Assembly: GCA_019058425.1 (NCBI GenBank)
Contig: JAHPYZ010000001.1
Location: 9,064-73,063 of the forward strand
Direction: 5' to 3'
DNA length: 64,000 nucleotides
Origin: Promethearchaeota archaeon
Lineage (GTDB): Archaea; Asgardarchaeota; Lokiarchaeia; Sigyniarchaeales; SOKP01
Shown here: positions 14,423 to 34,796 of the stretch, in pieces
Numbering within the stretch: position 1 is the first letter of the stretch
How the letters are laid out: each line of letters starts with the position of its first letter
Position numbers and translations under genes: made by a program
Notes under the pieces: model-generated
The model's database searches: none
Seen by the model: the letters and a program-made list of their open reading frames with translations, nothing else
Told to the model about the DNA's origin: nothing

Positions 14423-14809
14423 TTATTCTGGCTTCTTTTCTATAGAATCCTCGATTTCTTGCTTAAAATCAGAAAAAGCACCAATTTTACCTTTAAAGGT
14501 TTTTAGCTTTTCAGAATATAGTTTAAAAAATTTTTTTGATATCTTTTTTAATTCTTTACTTACTTTTTTTTGATTGACTTCTCTAGAGGAATTCGCTACA
14601 AATACAAGCCCACTCTGCTTTATTATGGTAAATCTTGTATTTTGTAATTCAAAGTTTGACATACCTCCCTCAGCTAGTTGTTCAGCAAAATGATCTAAAG
14701 CACTCATCATTGCTCCAAAAAGTTGAGGGGATACAGCTTTATCATATTCTCTATGGAATATAACTATCCCCGATTTTTCTAATATCCAAATATCTTGGAG
14801 TACTTTCAA
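14423..14809 (-). CDS. Longin-like domain protein
   Basis: 128 residues with the alternation expected of a longin or adaptin-sigma fold: two strands (IWILEKSG, IVIFHRE), a long helix (PQLFGAMMSALDHFAEQLA), three strands (MSNFELQNTRFTIIKQSG, LVFVANSS), then a basic helix pair (VSKELKKISKKFFKLYSEKL) and an acidic tail. Longin domains are found in eukaryotic SNAREs, adaptor complexes and GTPase-regulator complexes, and are known to be expanded in Asgard archaea. There is no membrane anchor, so it is a free soluble domain. The soluble tails of the two seven-helix proteins at 32357 and 33669 share the same layout. The fold call is from pattern, not alignment; a roadblock fold is the main alternative. 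Confidence 0.65.
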   Translation of the reverse strand: MKVLQDIWILEKSGIVIFHREYDKAVSPQLFGAMMSALDHFAEQLAEGGMSNFELQNTRFTIIKQSGLVFVANSSREVNQKKVSKELKKISKKFFKLYSEKLKTFKGKIGAFSDFKQEIEDSIEKKPE

Positions 14810-27928: not shown

Positions 27929-28789
27929 TTAATCACAATCTTCGGCTTGTTGGAGATTAATCTTTATGAATGCTTCTTCTTGAAGATTACGTTGTTCTGA
28001 TTTCACAGATCGATTAACTTGATGTAAATGTTTCATTGCATTATTTTTTCCTTCTTTAATATTTTCAATTAATTCTTCTTTACTGAAACCCCCGGAAAGT
28101 ACTAGAGCTGTTTGAAAAGTGTGTTCTGGTTCTAAAGTCATAAATTCAATTTGTAATGCTGATAAAATTTCACCTTCTCCTTTATATAAAGTATTAGAGA
28201 GATTCATATTATTTGGATCTATTTTGAAATCATTAGTTAAACAAGACTCATAGTTTGTTGATTTAGATATTGGAGAAAAACCACCATATAAGCCAGTATG
28301 GTCATATTGGTAAATAATGTCATTTTCTTCATCGTATCCAGATATATCATTATCATAACCTGCAAGACCGTTTATATCAAAATCAAAAACAAAATACATA
28401 GAAAAATCTTTCAACGCGAAATCAGAAATATTTTTTATTGTGAAAAAAGTATTAATATAAGGTACTTTAGGAGGATTGAAAATATCTTTGTATACCCGAA
28501 CAAATTGTTTTTTTTCTAAAGGAATTGATTGAATTCTCTTTTCTTGAACCAAATTTTTAAGATACTCTGTAATATTAAAATCTAGAGTAATTCTACTTAT
28601 ACTTTTGCCTGTACGTGTATTTACCATATTATAGATTGGTGTTGGTTCTACATTTTTAAGAACAACTGGAAGAGTTCCAATTTTTTTCCCTTCTAATTTA
28701 AAACTGAACCATGGTCCTGTTAAATTTTGTTCACTAAGATAAATAAGATAATTTCCCTTGTATGTCAGATCTTTAATTGAAAAACCCAT
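27929..28789 (-). CDS. Conserved-looking hypothetical protein, beta-rich
   Basis: 286 residues that I cannot assign. The sequence is rich in beta strands through residue 220 (YLIYLSEQNLTGPWFSFKLEG, PYINTFFTIKNISDFALKDFSMYFVFDFDING). It has an acidic Tyr/Asp loop (AGYDNDISGYDEENDIIYQYDHTG is its core, about residues 138-162) that could bind a divalent ion, and a helical basic C-terminus (FSKEELIENIKEGKNNAMKHLHQ). No signal peptide or membrane helix. It looks like a carbohydrate-binding or beta-sandwich protein, but that is only an impression of the strand pattern. Confidence 0.7.
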   Translation of the reverse strand: MGFSIKDLTYKGNYLIYLSEQNLTGPWFSFKLEGKKIGTLPVVLKNVEPTPIYNMVNTRTGKSISRITLDFNITEYLKNLVQEKRIQSIPLEKKQFVRVYKDIFNPPKVPYINTFFTIKNISDFALKDFSMYFVFDFDINGLAGYDNDISGYDEENDIIYQYDHTGLYGGFSPISKSTNYESCLTNDFKIDPNNMNLSNTLYKGEGEILSALQIEFMTLEPEHTFQTALVLSGGFSKEELIENIKEGKNNAMKHLHQVNRSVKSEQRNLQEEAFIKINLQQAEDCD

Positions 28790-28955: not shown

Positions 28956-29939
28956 TTAAAGAGATTCTACTACTCTATAAGCAATATATAAGAACGCGTC
29001 ATTAACATTCTCACCTGTTAAAGCTGATGTAAGAATATAATGAAAGTCGAATTGCTTGGCAATTGACTTTATAGCATCTTCACTTATTACAATATTATCT
29101 GCCAAATCAGATTTATTTCCAACTATAATAATTGGAATATTTCGCTTAACTGATTTTTTAATATCCTCAAACCATTTTTCAATACTATTCAAATTACCTG
29201 CTCGGGTTCTATCTATTACTATAAATGCAGCGTTAGCACCATTATAGAATTTAGCTCTATACGGAGCCATTTGTTGTACCTGTCCTCCAATATCCCAGAT
29301 TATAAAGTTCATTTTAGTTTTTTCACTTAACAATACTGTCTTTTTGCTTATTTGAACTCCTATAGTTGAGATATAATCTCTTTCAAACTTGTTTTCAACA
29401 AATCTTCTAATCAAAGATGTTTTCCCTACAGAATAATCACCTGTTAGAATGATCTTATTGGAGTATTCTCCTGATATATTTGGAAGTTGCCCTCCTCTAG
29501 TTTTTGATAATGCTTTGATTATCTCTGGAATTTTTGGGGAAACATCCACATTTCCTTCCAGAACTAATTCCACTTTAGATGCAATATGTTCCGAATAAAC
29601 TTTCAATTCAATATCTGTCGTTTTTTGTTCTGCTACAGTAGTTAGAATTGAATTAGGTCCCATTGAACTGAATACAAATTTCTTGTCTCCAGTTGACGTA
29701 ATATTGAAAAAGCTGTCAGTTGTTCCAAATTCAACTTTAATTCGGTCAATTAAAGAATCTAACATTGCTGAAATTGCACCAATTATCTCATCAGATTCGT
29801 TTTCATTTTCTTGTTTAGATTCAGAAGCAATAATAAAACCATTTCTATCACATATAGCTATACCTAATATCCCCTCTACATCATTGGAATAGTTTTTTAA
29901 TATTTCTTCTAACAACTCTGTGCTTGGAAGCCTCTCCAT
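28956..29939 (-). CDS. Roadblock/LC7 domain fused to a Rab/Arf-like small GTPase
   Basis: 327 residues. Residues 5-130 form a roadblock/LC7 domain (helix TELLEEILKNY, strands GILGIAICDRNGFIIAS, KKFVFSSMGPNSILTTVAE). Residues 160-327 form a Ras-superfamily GTPase with G1 GDYSVGKTS (167-175), G2 threonine T192 in YISTIG, G3 WDIGGQ (215-220), G4 GNKSDL (274-279) and G5 TSALTG (304-309). All nucleotide-binding motifs are intact, so it should bind and hydrolyse GTP. No C-terminal prenylation cysteine is present. In eukaryotes and bacteria, roadblock proteins bind or regulate small GTPases as separate partners; here both are one chain, which suggests built-in regulation or dimerisation. Such expansion is an Asgard hallmark. 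Confidence 0.93.
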   Translation of the reverse strand: MERLPSTELLEEILKNYSNDVEGILGIAICDRNGFIIASESKQENENESDEIIGAISAMLDSLIDRIKVEFGTTDSFFNITSTGDKKFVFSSMGPNSILTTVAEQKTTDIELKVYSEHIASKVELVLEGNVDVSPKIPEIIKALSKTRGGQLPNISGEYSNKIILTGDYSVGKTSLIRRFVENKFERDYISTIGVQISKKTVLLSEKTKMNFIIWDIGGQVQQMAPYRAKFYNGANAAFIVIDRTRAGNLNSIEKWFEDIKKSVKRNIPIIIVGNKSDLADNIVISEDAIKSIAKQFDFHYILTSALTGENVNDAFLYIAYRVVESL

Positions 29940-30269: not shown

Positions 30270-32141
30270 CTAGCTATTCATGGAAGTCAAATAATTCATT
30301 ATATACTTTTGAGTCTTATCCGAAATCTGATATAAATCAAAAACTAATAAATCAAGTTTTCTTTGGAGATGTTCTATTTCCTTTTGCTCCTTTAAATGCA
30401 TTTTTATATATTCTATTATTTTTTTAGCTATTTCTTTTTGATTATCAGAAATTGGGACTAGAATGGGGAACTCTTTTATTTTTTCAATCAAAATTCTTGG
30501 AAATAATTTTTTATATGTTCCAAAAGATTTAATGAAGTAATATGATAATAGAGTGGAATTAATTAGACCTAACAGATAGTAATTGTTAAATTCAGGTATA
30601 GGAGATTTCTGAATTTTTAAATTATAAAATGACTGGGACGTTAAGGATAGATCCTTATCATATGTTGCACAAATTCTACCATTTTGGTTAATTTGTCTTA
30701 TTATAATTCGATCTTCATAGTTTGAAAACTCCTTATAATTTATTCCTACTTTAGACGTATCTATAAATTTATAATGTATTTTCTGATAACGCTGTATTGA
30801 ATAAAGATATAATTTTAAATCATTATTCTTCGATTGATCTGGCTTTGTATCATGAATTATTTTTTCAATATTCTGTTTATCTAAGAGTGATTTACATTGA
30901 GTGCATTTTAATGATTTCTTTGGGATCGGTAAATATTTATTACACTTTTCGCAAAATATTATCTCTCCTGCTTTAGATAACTCAACTCCTCTACTCAATT
31001 TATAATGAATACCATATTTTATGCTAAGGTCCTTAAGTTTAGGGAAATTTGTATTTAAATTCTTAAGAATTAATGTATCTTTATTATTCAAATGTATTAA
31101 GAATTTATAACCCCAATTTTCAATATTCTTTTGAGGGACAAATCTTTCATGTTGATTTGATATTTTGATTTTAAATTGGTTTTTTTCCCTTTCTAATGCA
31201 TTATTTTCTTTTTCTAGAATGATAATAATATTTGAAACGATAGGATCATCAAATTTAGGGCCTATGTAATAGATTTCCTTGATTTTTGATGTATTATAGA
31301 TATATTCTCTTATAATAGACCGATAAGAGAGAGCTAATAATGAATCTGGAACAATATAACCTAATAAACCTCCATCATTTAATATTTTCAATCCAAGTTC
31401 CATAAAAATCTGATAATAATCATATTGACCAGTTATAGTTTCAAAACTTCTATTTTCAAGGATTTTTCTTTGATTACGTGGAATATCTCTAATAAATAAA
31501 TATGGAGGATTTCCTACAACATAATCATACTTTTCTGTTTTACCTATATTTAGTGAATCATGATTAAAAATATTGAAGAAGGGTAGTTGATAGTTAGGAT
31601 TGGATTCTTGGATAACTTTTAAAATTTCAAATAAGACGTAGTGAATATTCACCTGACATAAAATGCAGGCAATTCTACTAATATCAACTCCATAAATATT
31701 ATTTTTAATACTTGAAATAACTGTTTTGGCTTCTTCAATCGTTAATTCAGAAATTCTTTTTCGATTATAAATTTGAAGCCATCTATTAATCAATCTTCTA
31801 ATAGCTTGAATAATAAAACTTCCAGATCCACAACTAATATCAATTACCTTTTTGGTTTCAATCTCTCTGAAATAAGTATATCCTACGCTATCTAAGATAT
31901 AATTTACTATTGCTATAGGAGTATAAAATTCACCGAACTTTTTTTTTTCTTTATGATTTCGCACATTTTCATACAAACTAATAATATCATCATCATTTAG
32001 ATGATTTTTATTTAAAAAACTTAGATTTCTAAAAACTTCATTAAGAAAGATCTGCTCAACTTGATTATCATTGACTATATCATAAAAACTCTTTAAATTA
32101 CGAATGATATCCTTATCTAAATAATCAATGAATTCTTTCAT
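30270..32141 (-). CDS. N6-adenine DNA methyltransferase with internal zinc ribbon (Eco57I/TaqI-like)
   Basis: 623 residues. FGEFYTPIAIVNYIL (69-83) is the usual entry of type I/IIG-like methyltransferases, motif I is VIDISCGSGSFI (99-110) and catalytic NPPY is at 211-214. A CEKC...CTQC zinc ribbon is inserted at about 395-425, and the C-terminal part (DLSLTSQSFYNL onward) resembles TaqI-type target recognition domains. The N-terminal 60 residues are too short for the nuclease domain of type IIG enzymes, and no PD-(D/E)xK motif is visible. It thus looks like a methyltransferase without its own nuclease. It could be orphan or the modification part of a defence system whose other genes are not nearby. 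Confidence 0.88.
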   Translation of the reverse strand: MKEFIDYLDKDIIRNLKSFYDIVNDNQVEQIFLNEVFRNLSFLNKNHLNDDDIISLYENVRNHKEKKKFGEFYTPIAIVNYILDSVGYTYFREIETKKVIDISCGSGSFIIQAIRRLINRWLQIYNRKRISELTIEEAKTVISSIKNNIYGVDISRIACILCQVNIHYVLFEILKVIQESNPNYQLPFFNIFNHDSLNIGKTEKYDYVVGNPPYLFIRDIPRNQRKILENRSFETITGQYDYYQIFMELGLKILNDGGLLGYIVPDSLLALSYRSIIREYIYNTSKIKEIYYIGPKFDDPIVSNIIIILEKENNALEREKNQFKIKISNQHERFVPQKNIENWGYKFLIHLNNKDTLILKNLNTNFPKLKDLSIKYGIHYKLSRGVELSKAGEIIFCEKCNKYLPIPKKSLKCTQCKSLLDKQNIEKIIHDTKPDQSKNNDLKLYLYSIQRYQKIHYKFIDTSKVGINYKEFSNYEDRIIIRQINQNGRICATYDKDLSLTSQSFYNLKIQKSPIPEFNNYYLLGLINSTLLSYYFIKSFGTYKKLFPRILIEKIKEFPILVPISDNQKEIAKKIIEYIKMHLKEQKEIEHLQRKLDLLVFDLYQISDKTQKYIMNYLTSMNS

Positions 32142-32356: not shown

Positions 32357-33457
32357 ATGATAATCGACATATTTCTGATCACAACTTCAATAATTATTTC
32401 TATGATAGGGATTGGATTTCTCTATGTTAATCGAAGAAATTTTGGTAGTAGGGCGACTGTCTTTTTTAATGGGTTAATATATATAACTCTAGGTCTCTTA
32501 TTTTTCACATTTTTCTTTTTATCTTCAGAAGTATATTTCATAGAAGATTCTGCACTAATTTTCTGGTACATTTCGATAATTTTCTGGATATTTTCTGTAA
32601 GTTTACTAGGTGTTATACATAAATATATTATCAATTTTGAAAAAAAAGCAGTTTTATCAACTCTCTTTTATTCACTTATGATCGGGATAATCTTAGGGCT
32701 GTGTTTTATTCCGGATTCTTTTACAATTCAATTAAATTATGGTTCCTATAGTTATACTTTCGAAGACCAACTGCTTTTATTTTTTATTTTAAATTACAAT
32801 ATAATAATAATTGGTATAATGGGCTATAATCTCATAAAATATTTTAACAGAATTCGAAATGATAAATCAAGAAAATTGTTAATTACTCTTACATCGGAAT
32901 TTTCTATTATTATAGCCATCTATTCTTTGTATATCTTTACTCAATTATTCTTGTTCAAGTATCTTTATTCTATAGTTTATTTAATAGGAGCGTGCTTTGT
33001 TTCCTACTCTCTAATTAAAAAACCATTTCTCTTTATTGAACTTACTAATAAAATATATGATTTCATAATCTTTCATAGGAGCGGGATCCTATTATACTCC
33101 TATAATTTCGAAACTGGTAAAGAGATTGAAGAATCTATCTTGAAAGGCTCAATACTGATAGGAATTAACCACATTCTTTCCAATTTAATTAATAAAAAAG
33201 ATCAATTAGGTCTTATAAGGATGCAGAACAGAGATATTATTCTAGAATATGATAACAATCATGGATATGCTTTATTATTAACTACTAATCATAAAAATGC
33301 ATATATAGATAATGCTGTATCCAATTTTATGAAGAAATTTACTGGATTAAATCGAGAAAGATTGCAGAAACTGAGTGGTCTTATTGATATCTCAGAATTT
33401 AGAAATGCAAAGGATATAATATTAGAATTTTTTGAGCCTTTTATCATTAAAGATTGA
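32357..33457 (+). CDS. Seven-helix membrane protein with C-terminal longin-like domain (first of tandem pair)
   Basis: 366 residues. Seven hydrophobic helices fill residues 1-230 (first MIIDIFLITTSIIISMIGIG, last YSIVYLIGACFVSYSLI), then the junction IKKPFLFIELTNKIY. The tail (about 235-366) reads as a soluble alpha/beta domain: strands IYDFIIFHRSG and ILLYSYNFE, a helix GSILIGINHILSNLI, strands RDIILEYDNNHG and ALLLTTNHK, and a helix pair. This is the longin/roadblock order and resembles the free protein at 14423. With seven helices and a C-terminal soluble domain it could be a receptor or an anchor for GTPase-linked machinery. It is followed 211 bases later by a paralogue. Confidence 0.75.
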   Translation: MIIDIFLITTSIIISMIGIGFLYVNRRNFGSRATVFFNGLIYITLGLLFFTFFFLSSEVYFIEDSALIFWYISIIFWIFSVSLLGVIHKYIINFEKKAVLSTLFYSLMIGIILGLCFIPDSFTIQLNYGSYSYTFEDQLLLFFILNYNIIIIGIMGYNLIKYFNRIRNDKSRKLLITLTSEFSIIIAIYSLYIFTQLFLFKYLYSIVYLIGACFVSYSLIKKPFLFIELTNKIYDFIIFHRSGILLYSYNFETGKEIEESILKGSILIGINHILSNLINKKDQLGLIRMQNRDIILEYDNNHGYALLLTTNHKNAYIDNAVSNFMKKFTGLNRERLQKLSGLIDISEFRNAKDIILEFFEPFIIKD

Positions 33458-33668
33458 TATCTCTAAAATCAATTTAAAAGTAATAAATTTCTATATCCAA
33501 ATAATGTCAAAGACGTATTCAGGAAAATTATCAATAATAAAATAAAACTATATTTATGACCATATGTTCTATATTCAATAAGAACATTTCATTTAGTATA
33601 GTAGAAACCAAATAATAGATAAATGTAGAAACAGCAATTATTTTCATCTAAGAAATTAAAGGATTTAC

Positions 33669-34796
33669 ATGATTTTTCTAATAATTTTAATCACTGGATA
33701 TATTTTCATGCTATCAGTTGGTGCATATACTTTAATTCATATTTATAAACACCCTGAGGACTTTGGAATAAAATTAACATTCACATTAAATTTTTTAACA
33801 ATATTCAATGCAATTTTCGTATATTCGACTCTTTTCATGATCTCTATTATATTTTTCTTTTCTTTTAATACGAATTTAGCCCTTTGGAAACTCTCTCTCA
33901 TTTTTGGATTTATTGGTTTATTGTTAGTAGCGTTGATTTATACATTCTTGAAAGAATATAAAAAAATTCCCTATTTCCCATTCTTGTATTTTACTATACT
34001 ATTTGGTTTGTTAATTGGCTCCTTCTTTTCACCTGATTCTGTTAATTTAATCCTAGTTTCGTCATCCAACTTGATATTAGATCCATCACAAATAATTTAT
34101 TCATGTAATTTTTTAACTGGTTTAATTATCAGTTTATTCCAATTTTCTTTTGTTATATATTTTTTCTCACTTTCTTATATGATATACAAAAGAGCTAGAA
34201 AGAGAGAAATCATTAAAGGTTTAACTATCAATACGTTTATTTTTGTAATACCTATGTTGATGTATGTTTTGTACATTACTTTCCAAATAACAATTCTAAG
34301 AGAATTGCATATTCTCTCATTGTGGTTCAATATTTTATTTATGTGTTATGTCTTGATAAAAAAACCTGAGTTGTTATTAGAGTTAACTAACAAAATTTAT
34401 TATATCAATATTTATCATAAATCAGGAATTTTACTATATTCTTATAAATTTGATATATCCAAAAATGAGATAGATTCAACTATATGGGGGAATATACTAA
34501 TAGGAATCAATCACATCCTCTCTGAATTTGTAGATCCAAAAGATCAGATTGAAGTACTTCAAACTGATAATTCAGATATTATAGTCAACTATGATCAAGT
34601 GGGATTTGCAGTGGTACTTATAACAAATCGTAAAAATGCTATTTTAAAAAAACTGATGGAAACTTTTACAGTAGAATTCAAGAAGAAATACGCAAATGAA
34701 TTAAATGAGATCCAAGACCTTAATAAATTAATCAATGTTTCGGAATTCAAAGAGACAAAAGAAATTGTGGAAAATACTTTCCAAATATATCTCTAA
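33669..34796 (+). CDS. Seven-helix membrane protein with C-terminal longin-like domain (second of tandem pair)
   Basis: 375 residues with the same plan as the preceding gene: seven hydrophobic helices to about residue 240, junction IKKPELLLELTNKIY, and a tail with YYINIYHKSG, ILLYSYKFD, GNILIGINHILSEFVDPKDQ, SDIIVNYDQVG and AVVLITNRKNA. The tails of the two proteins are clearly homologous, while the membrane halves have diverged strongly, so the shared constraint is on the soluble domain. Gene duplication in tandem explains the pair. Each has its own upstream region of about 210 bases, so separate promoters are possible. Confidence 0.75.
   Translation: MIFLIILITGYIFMLSVGAYTLIHIYKHPEDFGIKLTFTLNFLTIFNAIFVYSTLFMISIIFFFSFNTNLALWKLSLIFGFIGLLLVALIYTFLKEYKKIPYFPFLYFTILFGLLIGSFFSPDSVNLILVSSSNLILDPSQIIYSCNFLTGLIISLFQFSFVIYFFSLSYMIYKRARKREIIKGLTINTFIFVIPMLMYVLYITFQITILRELHILSLWFNILFMCYVLIKKPELLLELTNKIYYINIYHKSGILLYSYKFDISKNEIDSTIWGNILIGINHILSEFVDPKDQIEVLQTDNSDIIVNYDQVGFAVVLITNRKNAILKKLMETFTVEFKKKYANELNEIQDLNKLINVSEFKETKEIVENTFQIYL

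Follow-up and report, generated by a model that had tools for sequence, protein, structure and literature searches.

Genes A and B, a tandem pair in the 64,000-nucleotide stretch of lokiarchaeial DNA analysed here (the window), encode paralogous proteins in which a predicted seven-helix membrane domain is followed by a C-terminal longin domain, the fold with which eukaryotes control the GTPases of membrane traffic. The most economical account of this combination is a prokaryotic seven-helix sensor in which a longin has replaced the kinase as output and of which a paralogous pair would form a GTPase-regulating platform.

Genes A and B are retained as a pair

An earlier note on this DNA had described two tandem genes with a common junction and homologous tails, and both open reading frames lie exactly where it had placed them (Table 1), on the forward strand and separated by 211 bp. 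Their products align end to end (33% identity, E 5e-49) and have in common the junction (LIKKP..ELTNKIY) and the tail motifs (the strand IIFHRSGILLYSY / NIYHKSGILLYSY and ILIGINHILS). Neither protein is covered by a Pfam or NCBIfam model. The relatives found by a sequence scan come from Lokiarchaeia metagenome assemblies, with 35% to 77% identity among B orthologues over the family.

Gene A is also present in 51 of the 52 genomes that have B (the lone exception being a fragment), and the two genes adjoin in constant order throughout the home family. Because the pair is kept as a pair across an archaeal family, its association goes far beyond chance. In a phylogenetic tree, A and B form a clade (support 0.998) that excludes the single gene of genus g2, and B's own node is unsupported; given this single-copy outgroup, it seems that one gene was probably duplicated and that both copies were retained. 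The arrangement is reminiscent of TRAPPC1 and TRAPPC4, two longins that are related to one another and sit in the middle of the active site of TRAPP (PMC10152722).

Table 1. Positions in the window of genes A and B, their predicted domains and two other genes
Feature	Position	Strand	Evidence
Gene A, 7TM-longin protein, 366 aa	32357..33457	+	ORF with ATG start; full-length paralogue of B
Gene A, seven-helix sensor-like domain (putative), aa 1-219	32357..33013	+	Hydropathy, charge pattern, HisKA_7TM profile match
Gene A, longin tail, aa 220-366	33014..33454	+	A2 profile, aa 220-364, E 4.5e-48 (self-including match, A2 containing this tail)
Gene A, longin helix alpha-1, GSILIGINHILS	33146..33181	+	Near-invariant across A family
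Gene B, 7TM-longin protein, 375 aa	33669..34796	+	ORF with ATG start; family-wide orthologues
Gene B, seven-helix sensor-like domain (putative), aa 1-229	33669..34355	+	AlphaFold2 helices, charge pattern, profile comparisons
Gene B, longin tail, aa 230-375	34356..34793	+	AlphaFold2 models; Foldseek match to SRX; A2 profile against PDB
Gene B, longin helix alpha-1, GNILIGINHILS	34488..34523	+	Near-invariant in A and B families
Roadblock and Ras-family GTPase, neighbour	28956..29939	-	Pfam Ras 2.4e-37; Roadblock 4.5e-4, just under cut-off
Stand-alone longin, same domain family	14426..14809	-	A2 E 8e-13; Fuz_longin_1 (Fuz/MON1) above cut-off; weak SRP-alpha N-terminal match

Three lines of evidence support a longin fold for the tails

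The tails had been called longin-like, and this reading is supported by a PDB profile search, Pfam matches of family members and a fold search. When a profile built from 49 diverse tails (A2) was searched against the whole PDB, the matches that made biological sense were Bet5 (E 5.3e-5 and 3.5e-4), followed by TRAPPC1 and Trs23, and no roadblock protein appeared. When the 49 members were compared singly with Pfam, 8 matched Sybindin (best E 2.9e-5), 7 Intu_longin_1 (Intu/CCZ1/HPS4) and 4 Fuz_longin_1 (Fuz/MON1); proteins A and B of the window, taken alone, had no longin match in Pfam. Profile similarity to solved or curated members of the longin superfamily is therefore found with Bet5, with Sybindin and, through the stand-alone longin of the window, with Fuz_longin_1 (Table 1).

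Structure prediction, which the earlier note had proposed as a check, gave AlphaFold2 models of modest confidence (mean pLDDT 63 and 65; 10 sequences in the full-protein alignment, and helix alpha-1 poorly resolved in the tail-only model) that resemble longins. The best Foldseek match of the B tail alone was SRX of the SRP receptor (E 2.8e-5), and the PDB neighbours of both models were almost only longins and related roadblocks (SRX, sedlin, TRAPP subunits, AP sigma, Ykt6, and Mon1-Ccz1). The order of elements in the B model fits the longin pattern beta-beta-alpha-beta-beta-beta-alpha-alpha, with four clear strands and a weak third one. It is very improbable that the tail has a roadblock/MglB-type or other alpha/beta fold instead, since roadblock chains appear only among the weaker structural matches and Robl_LC7 weakly matches 2 of the 49 tails, whereas the profile and Pfam evidence favours Sybindin and other longins over roadblocks and the order beta-beta-alpha-beta-beta-alpha-alpha, which ends in two helices and does not begin with one, is of longin type.

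Helix alpha-1 (G.ILIGINHILS) is near-invariant in both families. As its polar positions are conserved like its hydrophobic ones, the helix may well contribute to the core and at the same time expose a surface for interactions.

Many members of the longin superfamily dimerise and bind small GTPases. The longin of SRX, the best fold match, binds the small GTPase SR-beta at the membrane; unlike the tails of A and B, it is N-terminal in its protein (SR-alpha) and has no polytopic membrane domain attached. Eukaryotic longin SNAREs (VAMP7, Sec22, and Ykt6) likewise carry this fold on a membrane-attached protein, but their longin is N-terminal and precedes a SNARE motif and, at the C-terminus, one membrane span or a lipid, without any seven-helix domain; this order is absent from A and B, where the longin comes after the seven helices and ends the protein. 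TRAPPC1/Bet5 and TRAPPC4/Trs23, the best profile matches, share the longin fold with the tails but are soluble subunits of a large complex without a membrane domain. The TRAPP longin subunits make up the greater part of the catalytic site that acts on Rab1 and Rab11, and their octamer is thought to be derived by gene duplications (PMC10152722).

The seven-helix part is a tentative relative of HisKA_7TM sensors

Hydropathy analysis finds seven segments ahead of the tail in A and in B alike, and the AlphaFold2 model of B agrees (residues 2-27, 35-61, 66-92, 102-120, 139-175, 179-205, and 208-231), so that the helix count first proposed holds. In family alignments of A and of B, loops 1, 3, and 5 and the junction carry on average 2.0 to 4.0 lysines and arginines, compared to 0.05 to 0.43 in loops 2 and 4 and around one in loop 6. 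This clean charge pattern points to an N-out/C-in topology, and together with the seven helices it makes a cytoplasmic location of the tail most likely. As previously remarked, the membrane parts have diverged more than the tails, both between A and B (24% versus 45% identity) and among orthologues of A (38% versus 65%) and of B (45% versus 68%).

Profile comparisons link the seven-helix parts of A and B to those of distant 7TM-longins from several Asgard families (group D0; hhalign 95-97%). These in turn match the HisKA_7TM domains of histidine kinases from Asgard archaea (93%, E 3.2e-7, 214 collinear columns), as does the joint profile of A and B (80%, E 1.3e-5), with controls (reversed profiles and MFS segments) at E 0.048 or worse. 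The HisKA_7TM model of Pfam itself (PF16927) gives no match above cut-off in A, B or 33 seven-helix domains, and we therefore regard the seven-helix part tentatively as a remote relative of this sensor. Like HisKA_7TM and other 7TM histidine kinases, which have an N-terminal seven-helix domain of around 220 aa followed by a cytoplasmic output, A and B combine seven helices and an external N-terminus with a C-terminal output domain on the cytoplasmic side, and the profile similarity is collinear across all seven helices; their output, however, is a longin and not a kinase. The putative receptor function that had been suggested for the pair gains support from this remote relation and from the other fusions described below. 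BtsS, a 7TM histidine kinase of the separate LytS type, is a receptor for pyruvate (PMC10653868).

Comparison of the seven-helix profile with the PDB provided no case for a GPCR or microbial rhodopsin (best match, beta-1 adrenergic receptor, 44 positions, E 0.23). Other sets of 7TM-longins (groups D1 to D4) could not be securely joined to the A/B group by profile comparison, and the architecture may therefore have arisen more than once.

Proposed mechanism

On balance, we lean towards a reading of A and B as a sensor with a longin heterodimer as its output, which at the membrane would bind a small GTPase or regulate it. The two proteins would be the halves of a heteromeric membrane sensor, each with an N-terminal, HisKA_7TM-related seven-helix domain whose N-terminus lies outside and a short conserved junction leading to the C-terminal cytoplasmic longin, placed where a kinase would have its output. 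The longin tails would pair like TRAPPC1 and TRAPPC4 to form a platform that binds a Rab/Ras-like GTPase through its central helices (ILIGINHILS), and a signal at the seven-helix part would then alter the recruitment or nucleotide state of this GTPase at the membrane. Sequence evidence supports the seven helices, the cytoplasmic tail, the longin fold, the paired retention, and the kinship among the seven-helix parts. The case is strong as far as the longin and the pairing are concerned; beyond these we infer a heterodimer, GTPase binding, a direction of regulation, and a ligand.

Longin-tailed membrane proteins are predicted across the Asgard archaea

A census of the tail domain in Asgard genomes, as the earlier note had recommended, found profile matches in 224 of 227 genomes. 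The home genome alone has 42 matching stretches (E 1e-5 or better), close to the 41 longins predicted for Lokiarchaeum, five of which are fused to Arf-like GTPases (PMC4917890). Asgard longins and longin-GTPases were thus known already and belong to the same domain family as the tails of A and B; unlike these, polytopic, MFS-like or single-span receptor forms are not described in the literature searched, and their apparent prevalence is new to us. Of the earlier statement that no described family has this combination, the part on the combination stands, as our literature search (with most subscription journals and preprints outside its range) returned no description of a 7TM-longin receptor architecture; the longin part, in contrast, belongs to a large known Asgard repertoire (PMC4917890, PMC10933270).

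Membrane-built longins include 7TM-longins in many Asgard families, some of them with a C-terminal extension, 12-helix MFS-like proteins that end in a longin (MFS_1 E 1.4e-7, narrowly missing the cut-off), a form with 13 helices, and single-span proteins whose ectodomains reach around 1600 aa. Four single-span proteins of the home genome (L162, L165, L168, and L173; 753 to 1926 aa) have a large ectodomain and a predicted cytoplasmic longin with a C-terminal extension. The same longin is also found at the C-terminus of PAS-containing histidine kinases and of one CBS protein. The kinases at L059:3375-7829 (-) and L064:114-2030 (+) have the layout PAS-HisKA(-HATPase) before this longin and thus look like two-component sensors with a eukaryote-like tail, and L070:3140-3988 (-) encodes a CBS pair followed by the longin, possibly a nucleotide-sensing form.

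Adjacent pairs recur among various architectures—besides the window pair, these are the MFS-longins at L038 and L074, a pair on home contig C121 (L158), and pairs in g8 and f4 (L227 and L230). A pair on contig C5 was not counted, as its 382-aa frame with a longin match had no ORF match in the scan. The tandem MFS-like proteins with C-terminal longins (L038:3233-6570 and L074:2547-6065) have 12 helices each, and the L038 pair is flanked by two low-molecular-weight phosphatase-like genes.

Instead of sensing, the seven-helix part could be an anchor or tether that fixes a longin platform (a GEF, GAP or trafficking scaffold) at the membrane or a membrane domain. This would agree with the occurrence of the tail behind unrelated membrane modules (7TM, MFS-like, and single-span) and with a membrane part that diverges far faster than the tail and has few strictly conserved residues. 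However, fast divergence is common in sensors, a sensor-related seven-helix bundle of constant length exceeds what an anchor needs, and the tails are also found on sensory PAS-kinase and CBS proteins, so that we consider a pure anchor fairly unlikely.

Extended from the A/B sensor to the whole phylum, the same idea would be that Asgard receptors, together with sensors that resemble transporters (7TM, MFS-like, and ectodomain-single-span), pass their signals straight to small GTPases via fused longins, often as paralogous pairs, which is possible though in our opinion doubtful. If true, a receptor-to-GTPase system would predate eukaryotes, and membrane-bound regulators of GTPases such as TRAPP or SRX could have come from it. 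Asgard genomes encode scores of small GTPases and longins, which sensor- or transporter-built longins would link to the outside or to particular membranes. The proteins listed here are concrete candidates for membrane-bound GTPase regulators and offer a way to test if receptors in the membrane already controlled GTPases before there were eukaryotes.

Indirect links to small GTPases

The earlier note had proposed that the tails present a surface to small GTPases, an idea that draws support from a GTPase fusion, from GTPase genes beside some relatives and from the roles of known longins, all of it indirect. At L175, the same longin domain heads a fusion to a Ras/Arf-type GTPase. In eight genomes (g8; L044, L051, L052, L058, and L216-L219), a gene for a Ras-type GTPase of 183 to 186 aa lies 27 to 47 bp from a tandem 7TM-longin pair in convergent orientation. 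At L039, a GTPase-like gene is found 38 bp upstream on the same strand, and at L065 a stand-alone longin begins 13 bp after a GTPase gene. With around 84 Ras-type matches in the 4.64 Mb of the home genome, an immediate neighbour of this kind should be uncommon by chance at any one locus; the adjacency in g8 is probably one evolutionary event. Among the loci examined, no GTPase gene consistently adjoins the A/B pair, and most distant 7TM-longin loci, many of them single genes, have no GTPase nearby. Gene order in Asgard archaea is known to make it hard to pair GTPases with their regulators (PMC10933270).

A further alternative is that the tail, comparable to PAS or GAF domains, serves only in regulation or assembly through ligand binding or dimerisation, involves no GTPase and, for example, regulates a transporter-like seven-helix part. 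Longins fall into a broad PAS/GAF-like superfamily (PMC4917890), and both the tails on histidine kinases and a CBS protein and the neighbourhood of A and B, which holds no fixed GTPase partner, are in line with such a role. We nevertheless find it quite unlikely given that this longin family also occurs in a fusion with a Ras/Arf-like GTPase and that the nearest solved relatives, including TRAPP, SRX, and Mon1-Ccz1, are GTPase binders.

The roadblock-Ras GTPase of the window (Table 1) had been named as a candidate partner for A and B. It lies near the pair in 13 of the 19 loci examined, is missing from the surroundings of A and B in several genera, and in the window is found 2.4 kb away on the opposite strand; its presence goes along with general synteny, and we found no specific support for it as a partner. 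Beside this GTPase lies a gene for a conserved 286-aa protein (window 27929-28789) to which no function is assigned. The most constant neighbour of A and B across genera is an Eco57I-type methylase gene (window 30270-32141, reverse strand) that is divergent from A.
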